Shown here piece by piece: positions 1,888 to 18,860 of a DNA stretch of 38,230 nt (the stretch's first letter is position 1; the number at the start of each line of letters is the position of its first letter). This DNA comes from a virus. Made by a program: the position numbers and the translations under genes. The stretch lies in IMG/VR virus record IMGVR_UViG_3300025767_000052, positions 1-38,230 of that record. One strand, written 5' to 3'. The notes below the pieces were generated by a model that was not told where the DNA came from, did not search any database, and was given only the letters and a program-made list of their open reading frames with translations.

Positions 1888-2862
1888 ATGAGCCTATTAG
1901 ATACAAGAGAATACTATAAACCTTTCGACAATCCTTGGATGTTCGATTACTACGTACTACAGAATCAAATGCATTGGATGCCTGAGTCTGTACCACTTCA
2001 CACCGATGTCAAAGATTGGCAGGAACTAGCACCGGCTGAAAAGAACTTACTCACCCAAATCTTTAGATTGTTTACTCAGTCTGATGTAGATGTAGGAGCA
2101 GGTTATGTTGATAGATACATGCGTATCTTTAGAAAGCCTGAAGCTAGGATGATGATGGGTTCGTTTGCAAACATGGAATCAATTCATCAACATGCTTACA
2201 GTTTACTGCTTGATACAGTTGGTATGCCTGAGATAGAATACAAAGCCTTTGCAGAGTACGAAGAGATGTCTAACAAACACGAGTATGTACATAACATCAA
2301 GACTACTAAGGCTGATAAGAAAAGCATTGCAAAAACTTTAGCAGTCTACTCAGCCTTTACAGAAGGACTACAGTTGTTCTCTAGCTTTGCAATCTTGTTA
2401 AACTTCCCACGCTTCGGACGTATGAAAGGTATGGGACAGATTGTTACTTACTCTATCCGTGATGAGTCAATGCACGTTGAAGCTATGACTAAATTGTTTA
2501 GGGAATTTATCCAAGAGAACCTTGATATATGGACAGATGATTTCAAAGCAGAGCTATACGAAATCTGTAGACAGATGGTAGACCTTGAGGACAAGTTCTT
2601 AGACCTAGTGTTTGATATGGGAGACCTTGAAGGACTTACTAAGAAAGATATGTATGCTTACAACAGATACATAGCTGATAGAAGATTACTACAGCTTGGA
2701 TTAAAAACTAATTATGACCAGAGAGATAACCCTCTTGGGTGGTTAGATGAAGTGATGGGTGTTGAACATCAGAACTTCTTTGAAGGTCGTGCAACTTCTT
2801 ATATGAAAGCAGGACTACGTGGTAGACAAGATAAAATTACTTTTACAAACTTGGAGAAATAA
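1888..2862 (+). CDS. nrdB: Ribonucleotide reductase class I beta (small) subunit
   Basis: Ferritin-fold radical-generating subunit partnering NrdA. The E-S-I-H-x-x-x-Y segment (MESIHQHAY) supplies two metal ligands and the radical tyrosine position. TEGLQLF supplies a further glutamate and RDESMH the last Glu/His ligands; an Asp in FTQSDVD fits the first ligand. The length of 324 aa is slightly short of the E. coli protein (about 375). The tyrosine is retained, which favours a tyrosyl-radical class Ia/Ib type over the phenylalanine-bearing class Ic. It follows the 66-residue gene after two bases. Confidence 0.95.
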   Translation: MSLLDTREYYKPFDNPWMFDYYVLQNQMHWMPESVPLHTDVKDWQELAPAEKNLLTQIFRLFTQSDVDVGAGYVDRYMRIFRKPEARMMMGSFANMESIHQHAYSLLLDTVGMPEIEYKAFAEYEEMSNKHEYVHNIKTTKADKKSIAKTLAVYSAFTEGLQLFSSFAILLNFPRFGRMKGMGQIVTYSIRDESMHVEAMTKLFREFIQENLDIWTDDFKAELYEICRQMVDLEDKFLDLVFDMGDLEGLTKKDMYAYNRYIADRRLLQLGLKTNYDQRDNPLGWLDEVMGVEHQNFFEGRATSYMKAGLRGRQDKITFTNLEK

Positions 2863-2863
2863 A

Positions 2864-3082
2864 ATGATTAACAAAAGTGAAGCCAACTTGGTAAGTTTTA
2901 AAGTGCTTCTTACACGTAACAATGAAATCGTTACAGAGTTTAGTATGTTACCTGAGAATATGGTAGATGAAATCTTCCCGAAAGATGAGAGAGATGTAAT
3001 AAAATCTATCTTACGTAACGGAAAGACTAAGCTTGGAGACTTACATTCTTTTTTTCAACGAGAACTTAATGTTCTAAAATAG
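2864..3082 (+). CDS. Hypothetical protein downstream of nrdB (72 aa)
   Basis: The ATG at 2864, one base after the nrdB stop, is preferred to the in-frame ATG at 2819 because the latter lies inside nrdB. The product is soluble and mixed-charge, without cysteines or recognisable motifs. Its 3' end overlaps the end of the convergent cyclase gene by 17 nt, with no terminator-like hairpin between them. Function unknown. Confidence 0.6.
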   Translation: MINKSEANLVSFKVLLTRNNEIVTEFSMLPENMVDEIFPKDERDVIKSILRNGKTKLGDLHSFFQRELNVLK

Positions 3083-4805
3083 TATAAATCTTAATGGGCT
3101 TTTCTTTTCCTTTAACAAAGATAGAATCTAATTCTCTATGGGGTATATCACAGTTCTTAATTGTTTCATAACCTATGACAATGTCTTCTCCCACTTCTTT
3201 AGTAGAGCTTTCTAGCCTAGCAGCTAGGTTGACAGCATCTCCAATTGCAGAGTAATCAAAGCGTGTATCGCTTCCCATGTTACCCACAACTGCTTCTCCT
3301 GTATTTATTCCAATACCTATTTCAATTCCTAACTTGGCTGCTGCCATATCTTCCTTTATTTTCAGGGCTGTTTGGATGGCTCTGGTCTCATGGTTCTCTA
3401 AGTCTATAGGGGCATTAAAGATTGCCATCATAGCATCACCAATGTATTTATCTACCATGCCACCGTACTCTTTCACTGCGTTGGCTTGAATGGTTAAAGC
3501 CTTGTTCATTATCTCTGTTACTTCTTCCGGCTCTAGTCTCTCTGACAAACTTGTAAAGCCTCTCACGTCTGTAAATAAAAACGTACACCTTCTCCTTTCT
3601 CCGCCTAACTTTAAAAGCTCGGGATTATCTTGTAATCGTTTGACCTGTCTTGGGTCAAGGTAGTGTTCAAATTGTTTTTTGATAAGTTGTCTTAATTGAA
3701 ACTGAGTTCTAAAATTTAAATAGAACTGCAAGGTAGCAATCAGTGTCATACTTATCATACTCCATGTAAAATCTATGAGTAAATTATGAGTTACAAAGTG
3801 ATACTCAAGATACCCTGCTCCTGTTACAAAAACAAGAAAAAGACTAACGCCCTTAGTGATACCAAGATAATTGATTACAAGGGCTGTCAGTAAGCCTGAG
3901 AGTACTAAAATAAGTAACTCAAGAAACAGTCTATAGTCAGGAATTTGTGGTGTCTCTAACAAGATACTTTCTGCTAACGCTGCTTGTATTTTGTGTGGCT
4001 CTAAGAGTCCAACAGGGGTAGCAATTTGAGGAGAAATGCCTTTAGCGTTGAAGCCAACAAACACAAACTTATCTAGAACATCTAGTTCTTGTAGTGTAGT
4101 TTGTGGTGTATCAACCCAGCTTACCCACTTACGTCCATAACTATCAGTATTAATAGGAGGTAACCCCTGCACCCTAATTTTCTCAATCCCATTCTCGTTG
4201 GTTTTAATTTGATAAGTTTGACCCCCTCCTAGTATTTTTAAAACTTCCGTTCCAAAAGAAGCAACCCACCCATTATCTGTTTGTTGTAGTAAAGGTATAC
4301 GCCTTACTAAATTATCTACATCTACTGGTGCAGAGATAGCACCTTGATTAGCTGATTGTTTTAGTACATCTATGTTCTCTAAAAAGCCTTGAGCTTTTGG
4401 TAAAGATACTATTGGTCCTTTAATAACTGTACCATGTGTTGCCGGGAAGTTATTGTTGTTTACTTCTGGCATAGCTATAACACTTGCAGAACTTTGTAAG
4501 GCTTTAGAGAACTCATCATCTCCACCCATTCTATCTGGATGTGGAAATAACATAACCCATCCTACGCCATAAGCACCGGCTTCTATTAAATCATTATGAA
4601 TCTTTGCAAGTGTTTCTCTAGGTAGGGGATATCCACCTTGTTCATCTAGGAATTGTTCGTCTATGTTGAGGATTGTAAAGTGTCCGGTTGGACTTTGTTC
4701 AGGTACAAGAGCATCAAAGGTTTTGAGTCTTAGTACTTCTAGTGGTACACTGTTGAAGAGGAGAGGTAAAGTTAATAGAGTTAATAAAGTAATTGCCCAC
4801 TTCAT
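3066..4805 (-). CDS. CHASE2-domain class III adenylate cyclase
   Basis: Membrane enzyme predicted to make cAMP from ATP in response to an extracytoplasmic signal. Residues 3-18 are an N-terminal membrane or signal segment; about 25-285 form a CHASE2 sensor (FDALVPEQSPTG start, NIDEQFLDEQGGYP, VFVGFNAKG near its end). Three membrane helices follow at about 293-313, 318-338 and 341-362. The catalytic domain (about 404-579) keeps both metal aspartates (D413 in FTDVRGF, D457 in YIGDAMM), adenine-recognising K453 and D517, and transition-state N526 and R530. It therefore looks active and ATP-specific rather than guanylate. It is the last gene of the late train, one base after the FecR-domain gene, a pairing also familiar in bacterial genomes. 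In a phage it is unexpected; host acquisition is likely. Confidence 0.93.
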   Translation of the reverse strand: MKWAITLLTLLTLPLLFNSVPLEVLRLKTFDALVPEQSPTGHFTILNIDEQFLDEQGGYPLPRETLAKIHNDLIEAGAYGVGWVMLFPHPDRMGGDDEFSKALQSSASVIAMPEVNNNNFPATHGTVIKGPIVSLPKAQGFLENIDVLKQSANQGAISAPVDVDNLVRRIPLLQQTDNGWVASFGTEVLKILGGGQTYQIKTNENGIEKIRVQGLPPINTDSYGRKWVSWVDTPQTTLQELDVLDKFVFVGFNAKGISPQIATPVGLLEPHKIQAALAESILLETPQIPDYRLFLELLILVLSGLLTALVINYLGITKGVSLFLVFVTGAGYLEYHFVTHNLLIDFTWSMISMTLIATLQFYLNFRTQFQLRQLIKKQFEHYLDPRQVKRLQDNPELLKLGGERRRCTFLFTDVRGFTSLSERLEPEEVTEIMNKALTIQANAVKEYGGMVDKYIGDAMMAIFNAPIDLENHETRAIQTALKIKEDMAAAKLGIEIGIGINTGEAVVGNMGSDTRFDYSAIGDAVNLAARLESSTKEVGEDIVIGYETIKNCDIPHRELDSIFVKGKEKPIKIYTILEH

Positions 4806-4806
4806 G

Positions 4807-5931
4807 TTAGTCTCCTTGTGTTATAGTTATGGTAGAGTTACCACCACCGTTGACAACTATCTGTGTACTTTTACCATTTTGTATCATTACAATAGTGTAA
4901 GCATTTGATTTATCTAAATCTAATTTAATGGTATCTTCTAAAGCTTTATAAAATGTTATGACGTTATCAGTCATAAAAGTATTTATCTGGGTCTCACTAT
5001 CGTATCCTATTTGAGTACCTTTTAAATCTATATCAGTTTTTAAAATTGTTGAAGTCTGGTCTAGCTCATTGACATCTTCTATAATGTCTAACAAGTCTTC
5101 AAGAAAGTTTACATCTAAATAATTAATGTCTAATTCTGTAAACTCTAACTCATCTTCTGCAAGATAGTCCGTTTCTAAATCATCAAACTCAAGGAAATCA
5201 ACATCAAGAATATTAGTGTTGCTCCTTCCATCTTGTCCTTCATCCTCTTTTACTTCCTGTGGTTTATTTACAATTAACATGTTATCAATTAACTCAAGAG
5301 TCAAGTCAAGGATAACTGGATTGGTTGGTTTAGTTTCAAACATAGAAACTGTTGTAGCTTGGTAAGGCTTGTTAAGAACTACCTGTCCCATAGCTGTTGC
5401 GACAACTATCTCTCCACTTGGCAGACCGTCATCGTCTGGTAATAATATAATTAGACTTCTACCTAACTCATCTACAGTTACAGTAAAGTCTGTACCACGA
5501 ATACCAATCGTAGCACTTGGAGTATTGATAGTTATATTTTCTTTATCTATAGTTGCTAGTTTCCCTGTGATAAATCTTGCAGTACCACTAGCAAACTGAA
5601 GTGCCATCTTAGACTTAGAAGGGTCTGGGTCATAGATAAATTCATCTATAATTAATTCAGAATGTTCAGTAAGTCTAACTTGACTGTCATCTAAAAAAGT
5701 AATGCCCAATCTCCCATTAGAAGTTTGGACATTATCGTAGCTGTTGATGTCTAGGTCTAGAGAGGCTTGGAAAGTTTCGTCTAAGTCTTTAGGGACTTCT
5801 CTTACAACTCTACCTGTTCCGTTTAGTTCAGTTATGTTGCCTATATTAGCAACCGACTGCTGTTCCCCCATCGTTTTGAACGACACAAACAGTGCCACTA
5901 GAACCATCAGATGTAATTTGTAACCAGTCAT
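4807..5931 (-). CDS. FecR-domain secreted protein with acidic tail
   Basis: Predicted exported protein: residues 1-22 form a signal peptide (hydrophobic LMVLVALFVSF ending MG). A FecR domain follows at about 60-160, with the LGITFLDDSQVRL strand, FASGTARFITG and the hallmark TPSATIGIRGTDF. Residues 229-300 are a highly acidic stretch of repeated D/E-L-D units (such as LDVDFLEFDDLETDYL). The C-terminus (NGGGNSTITITQGD) resembles the repeats of the neighbouring curlin-like protein. Its start overlaps that gene by 86 nt; no strong ribosome site is visible, and ATG 5907 is an alternative that keeps most of the signal. It probably works with the adjacent CHASE2 cyclase as a periplasmic sensor or ligand; this is inferred from position. 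No sigma/TonB partner is present, so an iron role is not implied. Confidence 0.88.
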   Translation of the reverse strand: MTGYKLHLMVLVALFVSFKTMGEQQSVANIGNITELNGTGRVVREVPKDLDETFQASLDLDINSYDNVQTSNGRLGITFLDDSQVRLTEHSELIIDEFIYDPDPSKSKMALQFASGTARFITGKLATIDKENITINTPSATIGIRGTDFTVTVDELGRSLIILLPDDDGLPSGEIVVATAMGQVVLNKPYQATTVSMFETKPTNPVILDLTLELIDNMLIVNKPQEVKEDEGQDGRSNTNILDVDFLEFDDLETDYLAEDELEFTELDINYLDVNFLEDLLDIIEDVNELDQTSTILKTDIDLKGTQIGYDSETQINTFMTDNVITFYKALEDTIKLDLDKSNAYTIVMIQNGKSTQIVVNGGGNSTITITQGD

Positions 5932-6562
5932 TGTCTAAAGTACTCAGTTGTTGTATGTTAAATGTTCTAGAATTGCCTGTTTGATTTAATTTAAAGTAAC
6001 CACCTGCATAACCTTGACCTGTAAAGTTTACATTGTTATCGTTACCATCTACATTTACATCATTGGTTGCATCAGAATTATTAATATTAAAATCAAATGT
6101 ATTACCATCTCCACTAATAATCCAATCAATATCTGCATTACTTGCTAAAGATGTTGTAGCTAAGTCAAGTGTAAAAGTGTTTGTACCGCCTGTTACATCT
6201 ACATTAACATTAGAACCATCAGCACCGTAAGTATTATTAGGGTCTATCTGTACGTTAAACACGTTAGTAGAACCATCAAACTCCCAAAAACCTACAAAGT
6301 TATCTGCAGTAATATCACCTAAGAATTTATTACTTGAACCTATTTGATTAATATCAATAGTCTGTGTACCACCATCTAAATCTAATGCAGTCATTGTACC
6401 AGCAATCGCATCAGCTCCACCTATGATGTTACCTGAACCTAACTGTTCAGCATCTAGATTAAACGTAGCACCAGACTGGTCTATATATATTTCGTTATCA
6501 GCCCCGTATAGCACTGACACATTCATCAGTACAATTAGGCTCATTAATTTTAAAGTTTTCAT
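5846..6562 (-). CDS. Secreted curlin-like Asn/Gly repeat protein
   Basis: A 238-residue protein with a clear signal peptide (MKTLKLMSLIVLMNVSVLYG, cut before ADNE). The mature part is built of about ten short units of the type G-x-x-N-x-F-x-x-x-I/V, such as GSSNKFLG, GSTNVFNV, GTNTFTL and GDGNTFDF, with several Q-x-G-x-x-N motifs like those of CsgA/CsgB (NQIGSSNKF, NQTGNSRTFNI). It is acidic and lacks Lys/Arg over long stretches, as amyloid curli subunits do. Two cysteines lie at the extreme C-terminus. It sits directly after csgG and is the likely cargo of that pore. A beta-solenoid adhesin is the main alternative. The repeats are degenerate relative to the enterobacterial curlin consensus, so homology needs a profile search. 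Confidence 0.75.
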   Translation of the reverse strand: MKTLKLMSLIVLMNVSVLYGADNEIYIDQSGATFNLDAEQLGSGNIIGGADAIAGTMTALDLDGGTQTIDINQIGSSNKFLGDITADNFVGFWEFDGSTNVFNVQIDPNNTYGADGSNVNVDVTGGTNTFTLDLATTSLASNADIDWIISGDGNTFDFNINNSDATNDVNVDGNDNNVNFTGQGYAGGYFKLNQTGNSRTFNIQQLSTLDNDWLQITSDGSSGTVCVVQNDGGTAVGC

Positions 6563-7352
6563 ATTTCCAATAGCCTCTCTCTATTCCAATATTGATTATG
6601 TTTAATACCCCAGTTTCTACAGCCTTTTGCAAAGCTATTGAAACACTTTCATTCTCTGATATACCACCTTCTATTTCTACTAGCTCTGTGCCAGTTTCAA
6701 TAAAACGAAATACATCTTGAGAAACACTTGTAGATAAAATGCTTTTGGATACTAATGTTTCCATAAGAACTTCACCGGTAGATACAGATACTAACCTTAA
6801 AGATATAGTAACTGTGTCTTCCCTAAATTGTTTACTTGTTCCAATACCTAAGTACCTTGCACCAGAACCTCCAGATTTTAGATTAGCTTCATAACTAATT
6901 ACTCCACCTTGGACTAACAACCCTGCAAATAATAGTGGTTGCATCTTATTATCTTCTTTAAAATCTTTACGTGTACTACGTATTAGTTGTCTTTCTTTTG
7001 TTAGGTCATCTAAACCTACACGTTCTACAACTCTAAAAAACTTTCCACCTGCTGTATGCTTAAAAGCTCTAATAAGAAAAGCTTCAGGTGCTTGTGTTAC
7101 AGCAGTACTAAACAAAGCAAAGGTACTGTTGCTTCTTCTCTGACCTGTTAAATCTCTAAAGCTATTAGGGTATATAGCTATCGTTGGTCTTACTTGTGCT
7201 GGTGGTAAATTCTTTAACTCTTCTGATTGTAAATCTAATGTAGAACTAGACTGGACTTTTTTAGTTAAAACTAAATCTCCACTCTCTTGTACTACTGCAC
7301 AACTAGAAAGTAAAGTTACCAACAGGCAAAGATATAGTCGTTGTATTGCCAT
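6498..7352 (-). CDS. csgG: CsgG-family curli secretion pore lipoprotein
   Basis: Outer-membrane lipoprotein predicted to form the ring-shaped secretion channel for curli-type subunits. ATG 7352 is chosen (284 aa; a GTG one codon upstream is also open). It gives a lipoprotein signal with lipobox L15-S-S-C18. Strong similarity to E. coli CsgG (277 aa) runs along the whole length: FSTAVTQ, the IDRG-like GIERGYW near the end, ISYEANLKSGGSGARYLGIG, LRLVSVSTGEVL, SKSILS, VFRFI and ETGVLNIIN. The Phe of the constriction loop is kept (LFSTAV), but positions aligning with E. coli Tyr51 and Asn55 read Ser and Leu. The 5' end overlaps the csgF-like gene by 50 nt, and the 3' end overlaps the curlin-like gene by 65 nt. 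Confidence 0.93.
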   Translation of the reverse strand: MAIQRLYLCLLVTLLSSCAVVQESGDLVLTKKVQSSSTLDLQSEELKNLPPAQVRPTIAIYPNSFRDLTGQRRSNSTFALFSTAVTQAPEAFLIRAFKHTAGGKFFRVVERVGLDDLTKERQLIRSTRKDFKEDNKMQPLLFAGLLVQGGVISYEANLKSGGSGARYLGIGTSKQFREDTVTISLRLVSVSTGEVLMETLVSKSILSTSVSQDVFRFIETGTELVEIEGGISENESVSIALQKAVETGVLNIINIGIERGYWKYENFKINEPNCTDECVSAIRG

Positions 7353-7872
7353 CACTATCCGTTATAGTTAAAGTTATTATTCCATCTTCTACGTTATAAA
7401 CAATTGTATTGCCTTCTAAAGTTAATGTACCACTATCAGAAGGAACCTCACCAAATAAATTTTCTACTAACTGTCTTGATAGTTGTGAGTATATACGTGA
7501 TTCTAAGTTTCTTATAAATCTTGCAAGAGTTGTGTTCTCTTTGTCTCTTTCTATCTGGTCTTGAAGTGCCTTAATCTCTGCCTTCAATGCTTCTTTACGA
7601 TTGAACTCTTGGTTCTGAATAGTAAGATAATGTGAGCTAGTATTAATACCGTTAAAGCTAGGACTTTTAAACTTAAATACTATCTCATCTGCAAAGAGTT
7701 TAGAGTTACCCCAGAAAGCTAACAACATAAAACCAAACACAACTACTTGTACAATAGAAGCTACAGTAATTTGTTTCATCGGATGTATATCTACAATTTT
7801 TTCTATCCAAGATTCACTTGGAGAAAGATTAACTACTTGTAATATTTTCTTATCAATCTTTTCGTTGGTCAT
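7303..7872 (-). CDS. csgF: CsgF-like curli pore accessory protein
   Basis: Probable CsgG partner. After a hydrophobic segment at 37-56 and a cleavage-like site at A61, the mature part starts DEIVFKFKSPSFNG, matching the F-x-F-x-x-P-x-F-x-G start of CsgF that inserts into the CsgG channel. A charged helical region (92-140) follows, then a beta-rich C-terminus ending with TTTISLPVG, similar to the T-S-T-I-Q-V end of CsgF. The open frame has 31 residues before M32, which itself begins a standard signal peptide (start 7779). The longer form overlaps the upstream gene by 20 nt and has a slightly better purine-rich lead, so it is kept; the short form is the alternative. Identification rests on motif order and gene order (csgF next to csgG). 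Confidence 0.8.
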   Translation of the reverse strand: MTNEKIDKKILQVVNLSPSESWIEKIVDIHPMKQITVASIVQVVVFGFMLLAFWGNSKLFADEIVFKFKSPSFNGINTSSHYLTIQNQEFNRKEALKAEIKALQDQIERDKENTTLARFIRNLESRIYSQLSRQLVENLFGEVPSDSGTLTLEGNTIVYNVEDGIITLTITDSDGNTTTISLPVGNFTF

Positions 7873-8200
7873 CTCTGTCTGCTTTTGCTATCTTATCACT
7901 GTTAATTAATTGTGGCACACCTAGTATAGTTTTAATCATAGTATCTTGTCTTATGATTTCATTATCTAAGCTTCTTACTCTATCTATTAATGCAACAAGT
8001 ATGCCATGTTGTGAATCTAACTTAGTACCTAACCTATCTTCTAAGTTAGCTAACGAACCATTTAGTTTATCATCAAGAGTATCTAGTTTTGTTTCCATAC
8101 CATCAATAATTCTGTTGATTAATTTCCAAACAAACATACCTAAACCTACAGCAGCAGCTATAGGAAAACCTAACTCTTGTATAACTTGAATTACATCCAT
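7853..8200 (-). CDS. Holin-like membrane/coiled-coil protein (115 aa)
   Basis: One N-terminal hydrophobic segment (residues 10-30, LGFPIAAAVGLGMFVWKLI) is followed by a heptad-like helix with many Leu/Ile and charged residues. This TM plus coiled-coil plan is common for small phage proteins encoded next to holins, where they are annotated as holin-like or antiholin. Its start overlaps the last base of the holin stop. Lysis modulation is inferred from position only. Confidence 0.7.
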   Translation of the reverse strand: MDVIQVIQELGFPIAAAVGLGMFVWKLINRIIDGMETKLDTLDDKLNGSLANLEDRLGTKLDSQHGILVALIDRVRSLDNEIIRQDTMIKTILGVPQLINSDKIAKADRDDQRKD

Positions 8201-8673
8201 TAGTCTTTAGAAGTGTTAGAAGCTCCAAAGTAAAAAGATATTACAGCACTTGCCAAGCCACCAAGATAACCAAGCACTAAGTTAATTAATGCTTCGCTGT
8301 TTTGTTCTGGCGGTTGTAGAGTTACTAAAAATATGTATCCCATAAAACCACCTACTACTGCAATGCCCATAATACGTGCAGTCCAGTCTTTACTAAACTT
8401 ACCACGTGCATCTTGTTTGTCTTCAACTTCTAATGAAAAGACATCGACTTCTAGTTCTTTCATCTGTACTTCAAAAGCTTGTTCAGCTTGTTTAAGCTGT
8501 AGCATCTGTTCAGGCGTAGCTACTGCCATAGCTTGATTGATAGCCTTTGAATTATTAGGAACACCTAACACCTCAGAAATCATTTTAGCAGCCATACCAC
8601 CCATAGGTCCACCTAATGCAGTACCTAACGTTGGAGCTACCGCACCTATTATATTTGTTAATAATCCTTTCAT
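8200..8673 (-). CDS. Holin, 3TM / gene-transfer-agent holin type
   Basis: A 157-residue membrane protein matching the plan of the GTA-type 3TM holin family. An N-terminal Gly/Ala-rich amphipathic stretch contains the typical LGGPMGG (residues 10-35), a charged linker rich in Gln/Glu follows, and then two membrane helices at about 105-122 and 130-150. Its position between lysozyme and a second small membrane protein supports a role in timing endolysin release. It overlaps the preceding 45-residue gene by ATGA. Confidence 0.8.
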   Translation of the reverse strand: MKGLLTNIIGAVAPTLGTALGGPMGGMAAKMISEVLGVPNNSKAINQAMAVATPEQMLQLKQAEQAFEVQMKELEVDVFSLEVEDKQDARGKFSKDWTARIMGIAVVGGFMGYIFLVTLQPPEQNSEALINLVLGYLGGLASAVISFYFGASNTSKD

Positions 8674-8807
8674 ACTAAATCCTCCATTAGTTCTTCATAC
8701 AAATTTCTAAAATGTTCTAGCTCCATAAAAGCTAATCCTCTTCCAATCTGGTGCATTCTATAAATGTTATACGCTAGTTCAAGTTGTTGTTCAGTGTACA
8801 ATAGCAT
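8670..8807 (-). CDS. Small hypothetical protein in lysis cassette (45 aa)
   Basis: A 45-residue frame from ATG 8807 to TGA 8670, coupled on both sides: TAATG with the lysozyme stop and ATGA with the holin start. It is a charged, probably helical protein (LYTEQQLELAYNIYRMH at the start, EHFRNLYEELMEDLV at the end). No membrane segment. An AGGAGG-like sequence near its end probably serves as the holin ribosome site. Function unknown. Confidence 0.65.
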   Translation of the reverse strand: MLLYTEQQLELAYNIYRMHQIGRGLAFMELEHFRNLYEELMEDLV

Positions 8808-9259
8808 TATACTAGATTTAAAACTAACTGTTGTAGCTCTATGCTTCGTCTACCAACCTGTTTAAACCACCTGCTGTCTTCCATTTGTGCAGCCATCTCA
8901 GTCCAGTTGTGTTCTCTACAAGCTTTTAACATGTTACGAAACTTTGAAAGTCTTGTACCACCTAGGTTAAAACACATGTTCACTAACACACGTTGTATAT
9001 CTTCTGGAAGTTTATTAAAATCTTCTGAGCTTCCAAAGACATGGATAGCTTCAGCATGATGCCTATCAAAGTCTATCATATAATATCTGTCTACGACTTC
9101 CTGTGATACAGGTGTACCTATTTCCCAGTCATACTCAGCGTCTTGTGGCTGACATAGATGACCAACTCCTAGAGTCTTATAACCTAAACTGTCGTTATAG
9201 ATTTCTAGGACTTCGCCCTCGTGTCGTTTGATTTCAGCTTTGCATTGTTCTATGTTCAT
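8807..9259 (-). CDS. T4-type lysozyme (GH24 endolysin)
   Basis: Peptidoglycan muramidase for host lysis. ATG 9259 (150 aa) is chosen because it lies two bases before the upstream stop and gives the canonical N-terminus. The longer frame from 9373 would run inside the upstream gene. The catalytic triad has exactly the T4 spacing: E14 in RHEG, D23 in YNDSLGY and T29 in KTLGVGHL (T4 Glu11/Asp20/Thr26). The later VLVNMCFNLGG motif is also typical. It has no signal peptide, so it is a cytosolic endolysin needing the neighbouring holin. Confidence 0.93.
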   Translation of the reverse strand: MNIEQCKAEIKRHEGEVLEIYNDSLGYKTLGVGHLCQPQDAEYDWEIGTPVSQEVVDRYYMIDFDRHHAEAIHVFGSSEDFNKLPEDIQRVLVNMCFNLGGTRLSKFRNMLKACREHNWTEMAAQMEDSRWFKQVGRRSIELQQLVLNLV

Positions 9260-9260
9260 A

Positions 9261-12200
9261 TTATTGGTACTTAATAAGGGGTTGATTGTATGGTAATCCT
9301 GTGATGGGGTTGATTCTATCAGCAGCATTATCCTGTGTAAAAGGTACTTGAGGACCTTCAATAGTTTCTTCACCGACTAGTCCTCCTTTTGAAAACTGTG
9401 TTAGTGTAGGTCTAGTAGTAGGCTGCCTATTCTCAACATCTTGTAAGAGTGGCTGTCCTGTAATCGATTCATTTATTCTGTTTGTGTAATCAATAACTTC
9501 TGACCCTAATGGAACTGTCTTAATTGCAGATACTGCTGCTCCTTCATAATCTCCAGCATCTAAGTTTCTATAAGTTTTACCTATATTGTTATACCATTTA
9601 TCCAACAATCCAAACAACGGAGATATTGCTGATGTTGCTGTTCCTTGTTGGCTTCCTGCCCATGAACCAAATACTCTAGACAGTTTCTCTGCTCTCCAAT
9701 CAATGATACCTGACAAACCTGCTGCTTGACCCCACCATTTTGCTGAAAAGTTTTCAGGTTCTTTTTCTGCATAGTACTCTCGTGAAGGACTCATCATTAT
9801 TTGAAGTTCTCGAAGCCCTCCAAATATACCAATAGTACCTAACATTTTTATAGCTAATTTTAAATCTCCGTTTTCTACCCTGTTTATAAGCCCATTCATT
9901 TGACCTACTTTATACTGTGCCCATGATAAAAATAATCCAGCAGATTTAATCATTGGATTATTGCTTTGAGCAAAAATCATTCTGTTACCAATTCCGGGTA
10001 AACCTACGTCACGTTTAAACGCTTTCATTCCCACTTTAGTTAAAGTAGCTTGACCACTTGCAGAGTCTAAAGCTTCTTCTAATGTTTTAAACTTTCTTAA
10101 ACCTTCTAGGTCTTGTTTAGTTACACCATAAAAATTTAATTGAGTTTGGAGTGATCTACTAATTTTAGTTCTATTACCAATTTTTTTAGCTATATCAAAT
10201 ACTTCATTGATACCAGTACTAAAAGCAACTTTTGCTGCAAAATTAGTTGCTGGAGCCATACCATTTATTTTAAAAAAAGTTTTAGTCCAGTCTGAAAGTT
10301 TTTGTTGGAACGTTGTGCTTGGATGTAGACCGGCTGAAAATACTCCTTCAATGTCTTTATTAACCGTAGAACCTATCGTGTTTGCTTTAGAGCCTCCAAT
10401 ACCATATCGAGCAGCTATACCGTCTTTTTTCCAAGCATCTGCAAACCCTGCTGCAGCCGACCCAACTTTACTATTTTGAAACGGTTGTAAAAAATCACCT
10501 AACTGTGGTATAATAGATCGTGGCAACATGGTTGTATTTGATAAAAAAGTAAGTAAAGCAAACCCATCTTTAGCTAAGTTACTTTGTAATGGGTCAGTAG
10601 CACTTTTTCCAACTAATCCAAAATAAGCTTGAACTGTGTTCTTCATTAAACGTAATTTAGAATCTAATTCTTTCTCACTAATTACTCCGTCTCTAAATTT
10701 TTGTCTAAGTCCGTAAGCAAGTTTATTTACTATTTCTCCGTTCTGTCCCATTTGCCGAGCAAACTCAACTCCTTTAACAGTATTACTTACCCAGTCCTCT
10801 AAAATATCTTTTAAGTCTTGTTTTAAAAAAGGCTCTAACTCTTTCCTTGCTTTTAAACTTTTAAATATTCTTTCACGTTGATAATTTTTTAATTGTGGAA
10901 TTGCTTCAAAGTTTCCAAATACTTCTGCTTTTGTCTTGGGTCTTTTAAATACTGACTCAGTTACTTCTCCTAATACATCTGCTACAATTCTTTCAGCAGC
11001 GTTGTCTAATGAAGTTTCTCCTGTTAGTTTAAGTGCAGTTGCGTTCCATTTTGGGAACTCTGCTGCCAAAGCTTTTTTAACAGCCTTTTCTGCTCCAACT
11101 CTATTCCCCATGATAACTGCTGTGTCCCATATTTGAGGTAAGTCGTAGTTATCAATTTTATTATATGTAATAACAGGGTCCACATAAGAACCATTAAAGA
11201 ATTTTTTAAACTCGTTAGTATTCGCTATTAAATTGTCTACATTAGTCATAGCTTCCGTAGATAATTTAAATTCTTTTTGAACTGCTTCTCTAGTTCCTAA
11301 CTGTTTTATAATTTTAGTAGCTGCTGTTCTTTCTATTTGAGTAGCATTTTGAATTACTTCGGCAATCTGCTCACCAAATGTTGATGTTAATAAATCAGAG
11401 GCTTCTTCAGCACTTACTTTGTTTAGCTTTTTACCGTCCATTACCTGTACTAAAGACCTAACAAGTATCTCGTTTTCTGCTCCGTGATTTATTCCTCTAG
11501 CAGCAGTCGTACCAGAACCTTTTATTTTTAAAAAGTTATGTAACATTCTCATCGATTCGTTTTCAATAAGACCAAAAGCTTTTTCTTTCTGTCCCTGTCT
11601 TAAGTATGGAGCATCTTTAATACGATTATAAACAACACCGAAGGTCATTCCTGCTCCCATCAAGCTATAATTAATAGCATCGTCTTCATCACCTATAAAT
11701 GTACCGGCAGTAAAACCAACTCCTCCTCCAAACAGAGGTCTAAAAGTTTCATTCAATACTTTTTGCATTAAACTATCTGTAATTTCAAAGCCTTGTTTTA
11801 TAGTTTCTTTAAATGTACCATCTACTATTTCTCCCGTACCTTCTGATAGTTTAACATAGTAGTCTAATAAATCATCTTTTAAAAATTTCTGTGCTTGTTT
11901 TCTTTTTTCGTTTAAAATATCAAAGTCTTTTTTATTAATTTTTGTTTCTGCTGTAAAATTCCACTCTCTTTTTTTAGGGTCCCAAAGAATTTGACCTTCT
12001 GTTTTTAAAGTTTGAAATTCTTTAATGTCGTTTCTAGCTTGAGCAGCCATTTTATGTAAAGCTAATGTAGGTTCTAAATTGTCAATTATTGTAACTTTGT
12101 TTTTCATAACAATTGGAAGAACTGTTTTTAAAGCTTCTAAATCTTGACCCTCTAAATTGATAACAGCTTCATCTTTTACCGTGCTTTTAACTACAGTATC

Positions 12201-13105: not shown

Positions 13106-15205
13106 CTATTTAGATTGAAGTTGTTTTAAATACTTATTAAATATATTGAGTACATAATCTTTAGTTGTCGTATTAAATTCTTCTTTCGTAGTACCTTCAG
13201 ATTCTAAAAACTCTACAAAGTCTTTAGTACGTAATAACCCAGACATAGCAATAGCTTGTCTTGCAGTTGAAGTATCTCTTTGTAAAGTTTTTAAGCCTAA
13301 GTTTGTTCCTTTGATTTGGTTGCGTATGTTCATGTCGTCTATAACTTCTAAAGGATTTCTACCTGTGCCTGAACCTTTCAAAGCATTTGCAATAATCTCT
13401 GAATCTGTCAGTTCAGGAGTAGGCTCTAATAAACTTGTTGCTTGTGGCATTATTCCCTGTTTAGAGTTTAAATAAGTAATAAGCTTAATATATTCGTCAG
13501 TTGTAAAATCATCTTTCTGATTTATCATCTCGTTTAAACGAGCATCAATTTCTTCTGAAGACATTTTATCAGCTCCTAAGATTTCAAAATCTTTTACAAG
13601 TTCTGCTTGTGTGGGTATATTAGGAGAAAGTAAAGAATCTTTAGGTGCTGGTGTAGGAGCTGGTGTTGGGCTTGGAGTAGGAATTGGAGTCGCATTAGGC
13701 TCTAACTCAACTGGCTCGTCTGTATTCGTAGACACGTCTATTGGTTTTGTATCTACAACTGTAGACATAGTTTCTTGTATATTTTCTTCTAATGTTTTAG
13801 GTTCTAAGACTTGTGATCTTAGTTCATTTATTTCTGTAACAGATGAAGGATACTCAACTTTTAAATTAAAAAATATTTTTTCTTTTTCTTCCTGAGGTAA
13901 AGTTTGAAAATTTGGGTCGTTAAGAACTAACTCTTCAAATTGAACTTTATCAAAAGATTTAGAATCATCCTCAACATCTACAACTTTGTAAAGTCGTTTT
14001 GGTTTTGGACCAGTAAAAAATCCCGGCAAAAATCCCGGCTCAGTCAGTTCAATCTCAAACTCTTTAGTAGCAGTTACAAATGCATTAGCTGCAAACTGCT
14101 CTCTATCTGATTGAGTTATTGGTATGTTTGGATTATTTTGTATAAATTTAAGTTCTTCAGCTTGAGATAACATTCCAACTTTTTTTAAGAAAGTGTCTTT
14201 ATCAGTTTTATTATTTTTAGAAGGGTCTAAGTTTTCTTTACCGTCAATAGTTTTTTCAAGAAGTTCTAACATTACTTGTACATCTATAGGAAACTCGTTG
14301 TCTCCGTTTGAAACAATTAAAGTATCAATATAACTAGGATTATTTATTTTGGTAGGAATGTTTGTAAGCTTACCTTCTTTATCTTGATATTTAAAAGTTA
14401 TTTTTTGAATTGCTTCTAAAGTTTTGTCTGTTAATTTACCGACAGGTTTAACTTTTAAAACTTTATCACTTAAAATTTTAAAATCTTTTGGGTCTGTATA
14501 GTCTTCATTAACAATGTTTATTTCTGAGACTTTCATTTTTCTTTGCTCTATACCCTCTAAAGCATTTAAAAATGTTAAGTCTATAGCATTATACAATTCT
14601 TGAGGAGTATCTAAAGTGATAAAGTTGTTATCTGATACTTTAATTTTCTGTGCAATAGTTTTACCTGCAGTTGTATCAAAAAACTTACGACCTATCAGCT
14701 TTGCTAAGTTATCATCTGATATTGTTTTAACTCCTTTCTTCTGTACATCCTCCACTTGCTTAATAAACTCTTCTTGCTTAATATTAAAATAAGGTTTATA
14801 TTGTTTTATTTGTTCTTCATACTGCATTATTTCATCTTTAGTATCTTCAACAGCTTGTGCACGTATAGCAGCATCATCAAAGTCTTGTCCAGTAAATAGT
14901 GTTCTTAATGTTGCTGCTCTATCATTAACAAATTTATTAACATGTCCTCCAGCTACAGTTCCGTAGGTATCGTATAAAGATTTAGCCTCTCCTATTCTGG
15001 CAAACTCTCCTTCATACATTTTCTTCAAAGGAGTAAAACTATTGTTCCATTCATCAGCTCGTTGCATAGCTTTATTGCGTATATTACGATTAGCTATGTT
15101 CATACCAATCATAGCAAGTCCAGCTAGTTGTCCAAGCTTCTGTCCACGTTTAGCTTTTTTCTTAGCTGAAGATAGTAAAGATTCTCCTAATGATTTAATT
15201 GCCAT
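13106..15205 (-). CDS. Probable internal virion protein (699 aa)
   Basis: A long soluble, Lys/Glu-rich, mostly helical protein. The first 60 residues are basic (SSAKKKAKRGQK) with an Ala/Ile/Met stretch. Residues about 513-530 form a proline-rich hinge of repeated P-T-P-A/S. It lies in one uninterrupted structural block, with the stop eight bases before the start of the 1278-aa gene. A core or ejection role is inferred from context and size; no catalytic motif is seen. Confidence 0.55.
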   Translation of the reverse strand: MAIKSLGESLLSSAKKKAKRGQKLGQLAGLAMIGMNIANRNIRNKAMQRADEWNNSFTPLKKMYEGEFARIGEAKSLYDTYGTVAGGHVNKFVNDRAATLRTLFTGQDFDDAAIRAQAVEDTKDEIMQYEEQIKQYKPYFNIKQEEFIKQVEDVQKKGVKTISDDNLAKLIGRKFFDTTAGKTIAQKIKVSDNNFITLDTPQELYNAIDLTFLNALEGIEQRKMKVSEINIVNEDYTDPKDFKILSDKVLKVKPVGKLTDKTLEAIQKITFKYQDKEGKLTNIPTKINNPSYIDTLIVSNGDNEFPIDVQVMLELLEKTIDGKENLDPSKNNKTDKDTFLKKVGMLSQAEELKFIQNNPNIPITQSDREQFAANAFVTATKEFEIELTEPGFLPGFFTGPKPKRLYKVVDVEDDSKSFDKVQFEELVLNDPNFQTLPQEEKEKIFFNLKVEYPSSVTEINELRSQVLEPKTLEENIQETMSTVVDTKPIDVSTNTDEPVELEPNATPIPTPSPTPAPTPAPKDSLLSPNIPTQAELVKDFEILGADKMSSEEIDARLNEMINQKDDFTTDEYIKLITYLNSKQGIMPQATSLLEPTPELTDSEIIANALKGSGTGRNPLEVIDDMNIRNQIKGTNLGLKTLQRDTSTARQAIAMSGLLRTKDFVEFLESEGTTKEEFNTTTKDYVLNIFNKYLKQLQSK

Positions 15206-15780
15206 TATACTTCCTCTGTGTTCTTAGGTGCCAATAAACTTTCAGGCACTTTAATTTCTTTTAATTTCTTTTCAATATCAGTTGGTAACACGCCTGACCT
15301 TAGACCGCTAACCTTATCTTCTTCAACTTGAACAGAAGCTTTGCTTAATAATTTTTCCATAGCTGTGACTTCTTCTTGCCTATCTTCTTCGTCTTTTATA
15401 TCAGGCTCTCTATCTATTTTGTATTCTAATCTTCCTGCTCGTTCAACCAATGCCATAATTAAATACATCGTTGGCTCAATGAGTAGTGTCATTAAATCAG
15501 GGTTCCATGAACCTTCTTCAAAACCCGCATATAGTATAATTTGAGCAGCTTCAGCAATCGTGTTGTCTGCATCTATAATGTCAACAAGAGCTGAGTAAGC
15601 ATCTTCTTCAGTTAAACTTATGTACAAGGATTCAATAGCTGGTTGTATCTCTGTAAACTCTGGTGCCCTTTCAAAGGGTCTAGGAGAGTCAGGGTCGCTT
15701 GTAAGGCTTTGTCCGGGCACTGGTCGTTGCATTTGACCTAGTACTTCTAGACCTTCTTGTTCGTATTGTATTGGTTTCAT
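15205..15780 (-). CDS. Hypothetical structural-block protein (191 aa)
   Basis: An acidic protein (many Glu/Asp) with a helical central region (AYSALVDIIDADNTIAEAAQ) and an acidic/basic C-terminus. It overlaps the next gene by one base (TAATG type). Similar-sized acidic proteins occur among podoviral internal proteins, but I do not recognise the family. Confidence 0.55.
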   Translation of the reverse strand: MKPIQYEQEGLEVLGQMQRPVPGQSLTSDPDSPRPFERAPEFTEIQPAIESLYISLTEEDAYSALVDIIDADNTIAEAAQIILYAGFEEGSWNPDLMTLLIEPTMYLIMALVERAGRLEYKIDREPDIKDEEDRQEEVTAMEKLLSKASVQVEEDKVSGLRSGVLPTDIEKKLKEIKVPESLLAPKNTEEV

Positions 15781-15786
15781 AATTTT

Positions 15787-16713
15787 TTAAATATATTTGT
15801 ACTGTTCCATAATCAATGCAGAATCTAATGGACTCATGTATTGTCCACCAGCAGCTTTAATTGAGAAGTCATAGTCCTGACTAATTTTACTTAAAGGCTG
15901 TTCAAGATAAGATACTGTAGGACCTTCTTCATAAGACGGTGTACTTGCAGCTGTTTGTGCATCTGCAGCTTTAACTATTTCATTTTTAGCTGTGTCTACG
16001 GTAAATACTTTCTTAGCTGCTTCTGTGCCCCCACTAATTAATTTCTTACCGTGCTGACTTAATAAATTCGCTTCAGGTAAACTAGAAGCATATTTTGCTT
16101 TCTCTGCAGCATTTAAAGCATCTCCATACTTTACAACCGGAGGTGCTACAGCTGTTGTTTCGATGGCTGAGGCTGCACTTTTTTCTAAATTTAATTTATC
16201 AATTCCCATACTTTCAAAATCTGCTAAGTCACTTACTGACGGAGCAGTTACTGGCAAAGCATCTGCAGGACCCATTATCCATTCTTTAGCTCCATCAAAT
16301 GTATTTGTAATACCTTTCTTAAGCTTAACTCCTTGTTGCCCAACCCAGTCAAGCCCTCTAGAAATACCATCACTTACAAAAGTATAAGCTTTGTTAACTG
16401 CAGCAGCTCCATAGTTAATGCCTTGTGCAAGTTTACCCGCAGCTTTAATAAATAAATTACCGTCAGCAGCTAATTTACCTGCAAAAGTTCCAAAAGAACT
16501 AGAAGCAAGATAGCCCATGCCTTTCATTATACCGCCAACTGCCCACGGCATAATAAAGCTTAAAGCAATTTGACCAAGGATTCCAAACTTTGCAAAGGGT
16601 TTAGCAATTTTACCCATAACTTTACCAATACCTTTGGCAACTTTTTTAATTCCTTTGCTAACAGATTTAACAATGCTTTTTAAACCCTTTTTTAATTTAC
16701 TAAATAATCCCAT
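15787..16713 (-). CDS. Membrane-active basic virion protein (308 aa)
   Basis: The N-terminus is strongly cationic and amphipathic (LFSKLKKGLKSIVKSVSKG, residues 3-40). Gly/Ala-rich hydrophobic segments follow (about 44-75 and 80-100), with aromatic residues near 110-145. This resembles membrane-disturbing peptides and suits a protein that helps the genome cross the envelope. That role is inferred, supported by location among the internal virion candidates. The C-terminal half is soluble and Ala/Ser-rich. Confidence 0.55.
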   Translation of the reverse strand: MGLFSKLKKGLKSIVKSVSKGIKKVAKGIGKVMGKIAKPFAKFGILGQIALSFIMPWAVGGIMKGMGYLASSSFGTFAGKLAADGNLFIKAAGKLAQGINYGAAAVNKAYTFVSDGISRGLDWVGQQGVKLKKGITNTFDGAKEWIMGPADALPVTAPSVSDLADFESMGIDKLNLEKSAASAIETTAVAPPVVKYGDALNAAEKAKYASSLPEANLLSQHGKKLISGGTEAAKKVFTVDTAKNEIVKAADAQTAASTPSYEEGPTVSYLEQPLSKISQDYDFSIKAAGGQYMSPLDSALIMEQYKYI

Positions 16714-16721
16714 AATATTTC

Positions 16722-18860
16722 TTACCCGTTTTTAAATGCTTTAATTAAATTACCAACAGCACTAATAGATGAATTGAAATTCTCTGCAGTGCTTGTCTCG
16801 TTTGCTAACGCTGTAGCATAGAGTTGTGTTTCTCTATTTTCTTTTCCTTCAGCAGCTCTGAAATTAAAATCTGCTTGATCTCTTAACTCTTGCCATAAGA
16901 AAGCTTGTGCTTGTGATGACATGTTAAAAGCATTCTGTGAGTTCTGCATAGCCACTTGGTTAGCAGCAGCAGTGTTAATAGTATTAGCTTGTCTTCTCCA
17001 AGCAAGATTAGATTGCTCAATGGCTTGTGCGTTAGCTACATTAAACTTATCTCTATCAAAAGCAACTTGTTCGTTAAATTGATTAATTTGATTAGCCATT
17101 GCAGCGTTAGCTTTGTTAACATCTACTTCTGCCTGAAACTGTAACGCTTGTCTTGCATTAATTTGTTGAGTATTAAACTGAGCCATAGCGTTAGTTTGTT
17201 GTACGTTAAACTGTTCTACTTGTGTAGCTAAACTTGACATAAACTGTTGTGTTTGATTCTCACTAGCAGCATTAAATTGTCTTGCAGCATTCTGAGCAGA
17301 CTGATTACTTAATAACGTTTGTTGAGCTTGTTGAGCTTTTAACACATTAGCTTGTTGCTGATTGTTAAGATTTGTTAAGTCTGTTTGTAAAAAAGCATTA
17401 GCATTATTTATTTGAGCTTTCTGATAAAAGTCTGCTTCAGCTAGATTAGCTTGAGACATAAGCACAGCATTTTGAATTGTTGCTTGTTGTCTGTTATTAG
17501 CTTCAGTTAAAGCTACAGTCTGTAAAAACTTACTGTTAGATAAAGCTGTTTGCTGGTCAGCACTAAACTGAGCCATGTCCATTTGAAAAACTTTACCAGC
17601 GTTATCAAGTGCTGTCTGTTGTCTAAACTGAGCATTTTGTATTTCAGCTTGAGCCTCAATAGATTTCTGTTGTCCTACACTTTGTTGTATCGCTTGTGCG
17701 TTAGACTGTGCTAGAGGAACAGCAGATTGTATAATAGCATTGAGCAAGGCATCTCTTCCTACAGTAGAGGCTGACATACCACGCTGTGCTAACATCGCTT
17801 CTACGGATGCTACAGCGGGTCTAGCCCATGTAGGAATCTCACCCTCTTCAATACCTTTTAGTAAGCTATCTAATTGATTTGAGACTAAAGCTTCTTCTGG
17901 AAGACCAGCAATGACTCCCCGTTGAGCTTCGGTTAAATCCATCAGTCTATCTTCTAGACTTTCAGGGTCGTTACCAAGTGTTGCTATGTCTTCTTCACTA
18001 ACACCAGCATTTCTTAATTGTTTCTTAGCCCTTGTAACACGTGCTAAAGTTGTACCAGCTACTTGAGCAGCTTCAGCCATAGCTGTAGGGCTAATAGTTC
18101 CTACAACTCTTTCAGTTAATGCACCGGGAATAATTTCAACTGTAGCTGCTTCTATTGGAGCTACACGTTCTACTTTTGCAGCTTCTGCTAATGCTTCATC
18201 TCTTACTTCACCTTCAGCTACAGCAACTTCAGGAGCTTCTGTAATCTGTGCTGCTTCTATCTGTGCAGCAGTTAGTGGTTCAGGAGCAGCTACTGCCGGT
18301 GCAGCTTCTGCGGTTACAGCTTCTGAAGCTGTCGGCATTTCAGCAGTTTCAGCTACTAAAGCATCTCTAGCTGCTACTTCTTTAGCTACACCTAAGTCTC
18401 CTACTTCTACTGGCGTAGGTGCTGCTATTTGCGGAGGTGTAATTTCTCCAGCCGCTATTTGCTCTGCTGTAGTTTTAGCATCTTGCATTTCTTGAGCAGG
18501 AGATGGTGTAGGTGCAGGAGTCGGTGCAGGAGTACCGGGAATATAAAAACCGGGACCACCTCCATATGGACCACCGGCAGGTAAATTGTTAAGAGTACCT
18601 CTATCACCACGAACTTCAAAATCTTCAGCCATAGAATTTCTAAGTTTAGGATTTACTTCAAAATCTTCAGCAGTTGGTAAATTTCTGTTTGGAGCAGGTG
18701 TTGGTGCAGGTGTTACATTTCCAACCTGTTGATTTTTAAGATTAACTTCATCACCTTCAGCATACTGTGCACGAACTACACCACCTGTACGGTAGTCATA
18801 GCGTTCAGCTTTAGTTTTAGCCTTGTACTTTTTATTTCTTTTCTTTTTATGTATTGCCAT
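16722..18860 (-). CDS. Long helical virion protein with 11/22-residue repeats (712 aa)
   Basis: A basic N-terminus (HKKKRNKKYKAK) leads into two P-A-P-T-P linkers (51-57, 110-121) and an Ala/Glu/Pro-rich region (150-260). From about residue 370 to 677 the sequence falls into fourteen successive 22-residue units, each two hendecads (for example QQTALDNAGKV, QQTALSNSKFL, QQATIQNAVLM). Gln is favoured at position 2, Asn at 7, and a hydrophobic residue near 5. Such spacing suits a long right-handed coiled coil. The content is extremely rich in Gln/Asn/Ala with almost no Cys. A structural or tape-like internal protein is inferred. Confidence 0.6.
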   Translation of the reverse strand: MAIHKKKRNKKYKAKTKAERYDYRTGGVVRAQYAEGDEVNLKNQQVGNVTPAPTPAPNRNLPTAEDFEVNPKLRNSMAEDFEVRGDRGTLNNLPAGGPYGGGPGFYIPGTPAPTPAPTPSPAQEMQDAKTTAEQIAAGEITPPQIAAPTPVEVGDLGVAKEVAARDALVAETAEMPTASEAVTAEAAPAVAAPEPLTAAQIEAAQITEAPEVAVAEGEVRDEALAEAAKVERVAPIEAATVEIIPGALTERVVGTISPTAMAEAAQVAGTTLARVTRAKKQLRNAGVSEEDIATLGNDPESLEDRLMDLTEAQRGVIAGLPEEALVSNQLDSLLKGIEEGEIPTWARPAVASVEAMLAQRGMSASTVGRDALLNAIIQSAVPLAQSNAQAIQQSVGQQKSIEAQAEIQNAQFRQQTALDNAGKVFQMDMAQFSADQQTALSNSKFLQTVALTEANNRQQATIQNAVLMSQANLAEADFYQKAQINNANAFLQTDLTNLNNQQQANVLKAQQAQQTLLSNQSAQNAARQFNAASENQTQQFMSSLATQVEQFNVQQTNAMAQFNTQQINARQALQFQAEVDVNKANAAMANQINQFNEQVAFDRDKFNVANAQAIEQSNLAWRRQANTINTAAANQVAMQNSQNAFNMSSQAQAFLWQELRDQADFNFRAAEGKENRETQLYATALANETSTAENFNSSISAVGNLIKAFKNG
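16830..17753 (-). repeat. Degenerate 66-nt coding repeats (22-residue units)
   Basis: DNA counterpart of the hendecad region of the 712-aa protein: fourteen units of 66 nt in phase, diverged in sequence but with the period kept without insertions. Boundaries are approximate. Confidence 0.7.

Follow-up and report, generated by a model that had tools for sequence, protein, structure and literature searches.

A reduced curli-type secretion cassette with a putative FecR–CHASE2 sensor pair in a further line of probable SAR11 phages

Genes for the curli-type (type VIII) secretion pore have been reported in phages (PMC7029224; PMC9004378), and a longer module, in which a "histidine kinase" (HK) is followed by CsgF, CsgG, CsgA/B, FecR, an optional further CsgA/B and an adenylate cyclase, was described in podo- and myo-pelagiphages in 2022 (PMC9599517). 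FecR and cyclase genes are not part of bacterial curli operons (PMC9599517), and the proposed benefits to the phage include superinfection exclusion and the holding of sister cells near burst (PMC7029224; PMC9599517). Here we consider a cassette of this kind at positions 3066–7872 of a linear virus record of 38,230 bases, IMGVR_UViG_3300025767_000052 (the window is this whole stretch). The original prediction read the locus as a reduced curli-type module, which the Pfam and curlin-family profile identities bear out, and took the full set with a cyclase to be undescribed, which it is not, as the 2022 module includes both FecR and the cyclase; the roles it offered, such as exclusion and aggregation, had likewise already been discussed (PMC9599517; PMC7029224; PMC9004378). 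The module is already described in kind, and the observation itself is real and well supported. What is new is the carrier line, the empty insertion site, the doubt about the kinase, the derivation from two units, the FecR tail, and a host that apparently has no cyclic AMP (cAMP) receptor. The five genes are as follows.

7303–7872, minus strand: CsgF, pore partner or chaperone (PF10614, 6.4e-18; ratio of nonsynonymous to synonymous substitution, dN/dS, 0.22)
6498–7355, minus strand: CsgG, outer-membrane secretion pore with lipobox LSSC (PF03783, 1.8e-48; structure 3x2r, 4.7e-45)
5846–6562, minus strand: curlin-like repeat protein with signal peptide, the candidate fiber subunit (PF07012 in 15/34 homologues; profile matches to 8c50 and 8enq; repeat ladder)
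4807–5931, minus strand: exported FecR-domain protein with a curlin-like strand, GGNSTITITQGD, at its end (PF04773, 3.7e-11; C-terminal motif in 124/124)
3066–4805, minus strand: CHASE2 membrane class III adenylate cyclase (PF05226, 5e-29; PF00211, 1e-19; catalytic residues)

These genes are consecutive, as predicted, but not all of them overlap: from CsgF through FecR the overlaps amount to 53–86 nt, while FecR and the cyclase lie one base apart. In the Pfam scan, CsgF, CsgG, FecR, and CHASE2 with the class III cyclase domain all score well above curated cut-offs, and the curlin repeat is matched at family level. CsgE, CsgB, CsgC and CsgD were not found among the window proteins scanned, which are not every open reading frame (ORF) of an incomplete record. 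The CsgG match to the Escherichia coli structure extends over residues 5–268; as read from the alignment, its constriction loop (GQRRSNSTFALFSTA) has one residue more than that of E. coli (GQFKPYPASNFSTA) and lacks Tyr51 and Asn55, and so the lining of the pore differs between the two. CsgF has a long N-terminus, and its true start may be an internal methionine at the signal peptide.

The middle ORF reads, as a family, as curlin-like. The best PF07012 match among its homologues is 3.7e-9, the family profile finds the solved curlin-repeat protein 8c50 (3.4e-6) and the major curlin subunit 8enq (0.002), and the invariant columns of the family form a Q-x-G-x-x-N ladder, which is typical of curlin. 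AlphaFold2 models the protein as all-beta, with a predicted local distance difference test score of 78.6 and a predicted template-modeling score of 0.78. Within this line (the window and contigs L002–L081) it has a conserved C-(V/I)-(V/I)-Q-N-D-x-G-x(4)-C end whose two cysteines set it apart from other cassette phages. The last protein is a putatively active class III adenylate cyclase with CHASE2 input: the metal-binding Asp413 and Asp457, the substrate-binding Lys453 and the transition-state Asn526 and Arg530 are all present, and these five residues are conserved in 67–76 of 76 homologues, with serine in place of the asparagine in seven. The FecR protein, finally, belongs to a set of 124 cassette FecRs with intact ends, all of which terminate in [IVL]x[IVL]xQ plus zero to three residues. 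A fuller motif, GxxNxIxIxQx(D/N), also ends many cassette curlin-like proteins (e.g., GDNHDIDISQTD), while that of the present line ends otherwise (VVQNDGGTAVGC). The short motif is found in 5% of other viral ORFs of at least 100 amino acids, a background that includes curlin-like proteins. In the AlphaFold2 model the FecR tail region forms regular strands at low confidence.

A single scan found relatives of the window CsgG in 403 viral contigs. Eighty of these, fetched with the window CsgG, keep wholly or, where the contig ends or the lysis genes differ, partly the order lysozyme–o157–o115–CsgF–CsgG–CsgA–FecR–cyclase facing orf87–NrdB–NrdA, so that the five-gene arrangement recurs in about 80 independent contigs. 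A second and more divergent 80, fetched by way of phage HTVC008M, keep CsgF–CsgG–CsgA–FecR–(second curlin-like)–cyclase. Over these 160 viral loci the cassette order is near-invariant, and wherever there is room, the curlin-like gene almost always stands 3′ of csgG. An assembly chimera is ruled out by contig L002, whose matching 17 kb is about 100% identical at the protein level, and by dozens more independent contigs of the same arrangement. Median dN/dS against the window is 0.22 for CsgF, 0.12 for CsgG, 0.17 for the curlin-like protein, 0.13 for FecR and 0.14 for the cyclase, compared with 0.07–0.09 for NrdB and lysozyme; these Nei–Gojobori values are rough, given the fairly high synonymous divergence. 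Purifying selection on all five genes is nevertheless clear, with constraint on the fiber subunit as strict as that on the pore. Two of the records met in these searches stand apart. The 306,714-base L304 (IMGVR_UViG_3300027668_000008), which may be a jumbo phage, has CsgF–CsgG–CsgA–FecR–second curlin-like–cyclase with an inverted o115 pair downstream. The unannotated 1.5-kb INPHARED entry OR851715.1 (Salmonella phage S.Kent 1-2-1), with a CsgG 39% identical to that of the window, appears to be a misfiled bacterial csg fragment.

How might these genes work together? We lean toward a reduced curli cassette for late fiber secretion equipped with a FecR/CHASE2 sensor, a reading whose export, fiber, contact and timing steps we infer from sequence. 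Lying 3′ of the lysis block, the cassette would be expressed late. CsgG and CsgF would form a secretion channel in the outer membrane, through which the curlin-like protein would be exported to build fibers on the surface of the infected cell. FecR and the CHASE2 cyclase would act as a sensor pair in which FecR meets the fiber subunit, the fiber or the pore and, through CHASE2, switches cAMP synthesis. In support, the CHASE2-type cyclase CyaD1 of Sinorhizobium meliloti made cAMP constitutively there when expressed from a plasmid without its CHASE2 part (PMC5498481). The benefit that fits best, because it suits a late surface fiber, would be the exclusion of competitors or the holding together of cells, such as sister cells near burst. 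Several results weigh against this picture. On its own, the curlin-like protein of the window matches nothing in Pfam, and a Foldseek search of its model against the PDB returned nothing significant. The scanned proteins included no CsgE, a strong aid to secretion in E. coli. Homology of the FecR tail to curlin repeats was considered and dropped, as hhalign lent it no support and a PDB profile search was empty, leaving a motif only. Additionally, the OM43 phage Melnitz bears a related cassette, and clumping was not observed with it (PMC9004378).

A more specific version of the sensor, to which we give only minor credence, would have the FecR tail dock on curlin subunits or the pore and CHASE2 switch the cyclase, feeding a cAMP route independent of CRP in hosts without cAMP signaling of their own.

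Could the pore instead be the point of the cassette? Its surroundings make the question pertinent, and they are listed here.

7853–8200, minus strand: o115, one membrane segment plus coil (no kinase domain; adjoins lysis genes in csg-less relatives)
8200–8673, minus strand: o157, holin-like, with two predicted membrane segments (hydrophobic segments 98–120 and 127–150; phrog_1544, of unknown function)
8807–9373, minus strand: phage lysozyme (endolysin; PF00959, 5.5e-8)
2819–3082, plus strand: orf87, convergent, marking the other side of the insertion site (kept with and without the cassette)

As predicted, the cassette comes last in the late train after the lysis genes. It stands 3′ of lysozyme and the holin-like gene and converges on orf87/nrdB. 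A promoter and terminator scan yielded little above shuffled background. Under the alternative, the CsgG/CsgF pore would be a lysis or permeability device, gated and pinholin-like, with the opening of the cell timed by expression next to the lysis block and the fiber subunit secondary. The placement of the window's cassette directly 3′ of lysozyme, the holin-like gene and o115 speaks for it, and it has been proposed for Melnitz (PMC9004378). We nonetheless judge it improbable: the curlin-like gene is retained 3′ of csgG at almost all loci and shows purifying selection, relatives that lack the cassette still lyse, and lysozyme is not a neighbor of the cassette in the cultured myophages HTVC008M and Melnitz. 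The earlier suggestion that the module aids lysis is weakened by the same retained subunit and myophage positions, and pore-only ideas leave a constrained fiber subunit unexplained.

The o115 protein is found in nearly all loci as one or two copies of about 80–116 amino acids with an N-terminal membrane segment and a coil, and the 115-residue window copy matches no kinase domain in Pfam or NCBIfam. By its position, it is probably the "histidine kinase" of PMC9599517, which questions the kinase label but not membership in the published module. Four csg-less relatives keep o115 at the end of their late genes: in two of them (L352 and L356) it follows lysozyme and a relative of o157, and in a third (L386) it adjoins, at the place of o157, a protein matching PF11351 GTA_holin_3TM (4e-18). 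From these we infer that o115 belongs with lysis or holin functions. It may still be tied functionally to the cassette, as in myophages o115 accompanies the cassette at a distance from lysozyme, and a few contigs have it inverted at the other cassette end. Among 50,697 phage records it is present only in cassette-bearing ones; the idea of a curli-specific component is weakened by the four csg-less relatives.

Rather than releasing anything, the pore could serve import of nutrients or cofactors (iron, vitamins) for replication, with FecR as an iron-linked regulator, as suggested in PMC7029224 and PMC9599517. The failure to find a CsgE gate among the scanned proteins is in keeping with that suggestion, which we still hold to be unlikely: it leaves CsgF and the conserved curlin-like subunit unexplained, and FecR adjoins CHASE2, not FecI/FecA, a partnership that recurs in bacterial pairs. 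These pairs also bear on the origin of the cassette. A sequence search found neither FecR nor CHASE2 in the roughly 8 kb around csgG in any of 80 bacterial csgG loci, mostly gammaproteobacterial. A genome scan with a single CsgG sequence confirmed no relatives, one with an alignment succeeded, and with phage-derived and Pfam models neither gene was found in the roughly 8 kb around csgF in 37 Pseudomonadota genomes, in agreement with the published statement on bacterial curli operons. A bacterial csgFG–FecR–CHASE2 cyclase operon, the candidate direct ancestor, was thus not found in those loci or genomes. In the same 37 genomes, FecR lies within 5 kb of CHASE2 at five of 15 CHASE2 loci (G351, G355, G358, G066 and G300), a proximity whose chance is roughly estimated at about 0.1. 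The output domains of such bacterial pairs are of the cyclase or the GGDEF-EAL kind. In genome G355 the curli and FecR–CHASE2 units share a contig, separated by some 15 kb that holds unrelated genes, and the output of its CHASE2 protein reads as GGDEF-EAL-like, not cyclase, an indication that the partner of FecR is the CHASE2 domain itself. Since FecR adjoins CHASE2 in bacteria but not the curli genes of these csgF-bearing genomes, the cassette appears to join two bacterial units, the curli genes and a FecR–CHASE2 pair, and the predicted envelope-sensor role of the pair is reasonable. The curlin-like tail is missing from the FecRs adjoining CHASE2 in G351 and G066, and the end of the G355 FecR is partly masked.

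What the cyclase could signal to depends on the host. Half of the sampled members of a family of 0.7–1.6 Mb genomes carry a SAM-V riboswitch, on which basis we treat the family as putative SAR11. A cyclic-nucleotide-binding domain occurs in four of its 79 genomes, in only one of them as a Crp/Fnr-type regulator. Full class III cyclases are confined to two contigs, both of them phage cassettes, and CsgG to the same two; a third cyclase match is weak, below the cut-off, and lies on a contig that may be foreign. Across these 79 genomes the family is essentially without a cAMP receptor or cyclase of its own, a result confined to putative SAR11. The two contigs, L330 (G753:C1) and L331 (G789:C11), are phage DNA with the cassette and are probably viral contigs binned into metagenome-assembled genomes; L330 has tail-fiber-like genes before the cassette and a lysozyme-like gene after it. 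An enteric-style arrangement, in which cAMP acts through a host CRP-type regulator to reprogram host or late phage transcription, could draw on the intact catalytic residues and on the precedent of CyaD1, which in S. meliloti acts by way of Clr, a cAMP-dependent regulator (PMC5498481). Yet with so few receptors and no full cyclase outside phage contigs, the standard cAMP–CRP route as in E. coli would be unlikely in such hosts, and we rate this explanation a poor candidate.

The large terminase subunit (TerL; about 64%) and the major capsid protein (up to 58%) have their nearest matches in Pelagibacter phages HTVC115P, HTVC103P and HTVC104P, followed by HMO-2011-like phages, and a comparison of 26 window proteins with the first 50 kb of the HTVC023P-type genome MW574966 gave no match. 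The carrier is thus an HTVC115P/HMO-2011-like podophage and not of the HTVC023P type that carries the published podophage module; the published ocean-wide survey may have counted this line unrecognized. Its host is probably SAR11, the most abundant bacteria of the ocean, consistent with the cassette contigs in the two putative SAR11 assemblies. The 38-kb record is probably a fragment of a genome of about 54 kb, the size of HTVC115P. The contig start truncates NrdA (2–1534), and the record therefore lacks the early region. Four late-region proteins of 699, 191, 308 and 712 amino acids (13106–18860) have no PHROG match and, from one relative to another, change far more quickly than the cassette.

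Within this line the cassette is sporadic. Sixty-three of the closest 80 NrdB relatives, the only ones examined, have enough downstream sequence; nine carry the cassette and none was seen in 54, an upper bound because short stretches may hide a more distant one, and 9/63 is not a population frequency. In two relatives, L352 and L360, the end of orf87 lies about 10 bases from that of o115, whereas in the window exactly five genes, csgF to the cyclase, separate them, implying gain or loss of the whole cassette at the late-gene end. The cassette thus comes and goes as one unit between the lysis block and orf87. Its absence from most close relatives, and the lack of any csgG match in cultured HTVC115P, HTVC103P and HTVC104P, might mark it as a passenger without current function in this line, but five intact genes under purifying selection over many contigs make that very improbable.

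With relatives of its CsgG in 403 viral contigs, the cassette is common, and if it works, infected SAR11 cells would gain a surface structure that they otherwise never have. Among the new points, the module enters an additional phage line as one unit, its so-called kinase is probably a lysis-block protein, FecR and curlin-like proteins have a terminal motif in common, and the presumed host seems to lack a receptor for what the cyclase makes. If the docking and feedback reading were true, the phage would have built a secretion-feedback circuit from two unrelated bacterial units.

Among known systems, the closest is the pelagiphage type VIII module of HTVC023P-type podophages and myophages (PMC9599517), with which the window shares genes and gene order; CsgE, CsgC and CsgD, absent from that module, were not found among the scanned window proteins. 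The window differs in its HTVC115P/HMO-2011-like carrier, whose TerL and capsid lie nearest HTVC115P/103P/104P and whose compared proteins had no match in the first 50 kb of the HTVC023P-type genome, in its single o115 and in having no second curlin-like gene; where the published module has an HK, the window has a protein without a kinase domain that is a lysis-block member in relatives. HTVC008M (KC465899) and Melnitz (MZ577097) share the order o115–o115–CsgF–CsgG–curlin-like–FecR–second curlin-like–cyclase, with CsgGs 42–47% identical to that of the window, but they are myophages with two o115 copies and a cassette away from lysozyme, whereas the window is podophage-like; the Melnitz cyclase, moreover, has serine for the catalytic asparagine that the window keeps. 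The curli system of E. coli (csgBAC/csgDEFG) resembles the window in its CsgG and CsgF homologues, curlin-type repeats and lipoprotein CsgG; CsgB, CsgC, CsgD and CsgE were not found among the scanned window proteins, and FecR and the CHASE2 cyclase are added. Bacterial FecR–CHASE2 pairs likewise combine a CHASE2 membrane protein with a neighboring FecR-domain protein that is exported, but in the csgF-bearing genomes examined they do not stand next to curli genes and the curlin-like tail is missing from the FecRs read from G355 (its end partly masked), G351 and G066, whereas the window's pair adjoins the curli genes and its FecR carries that tail.

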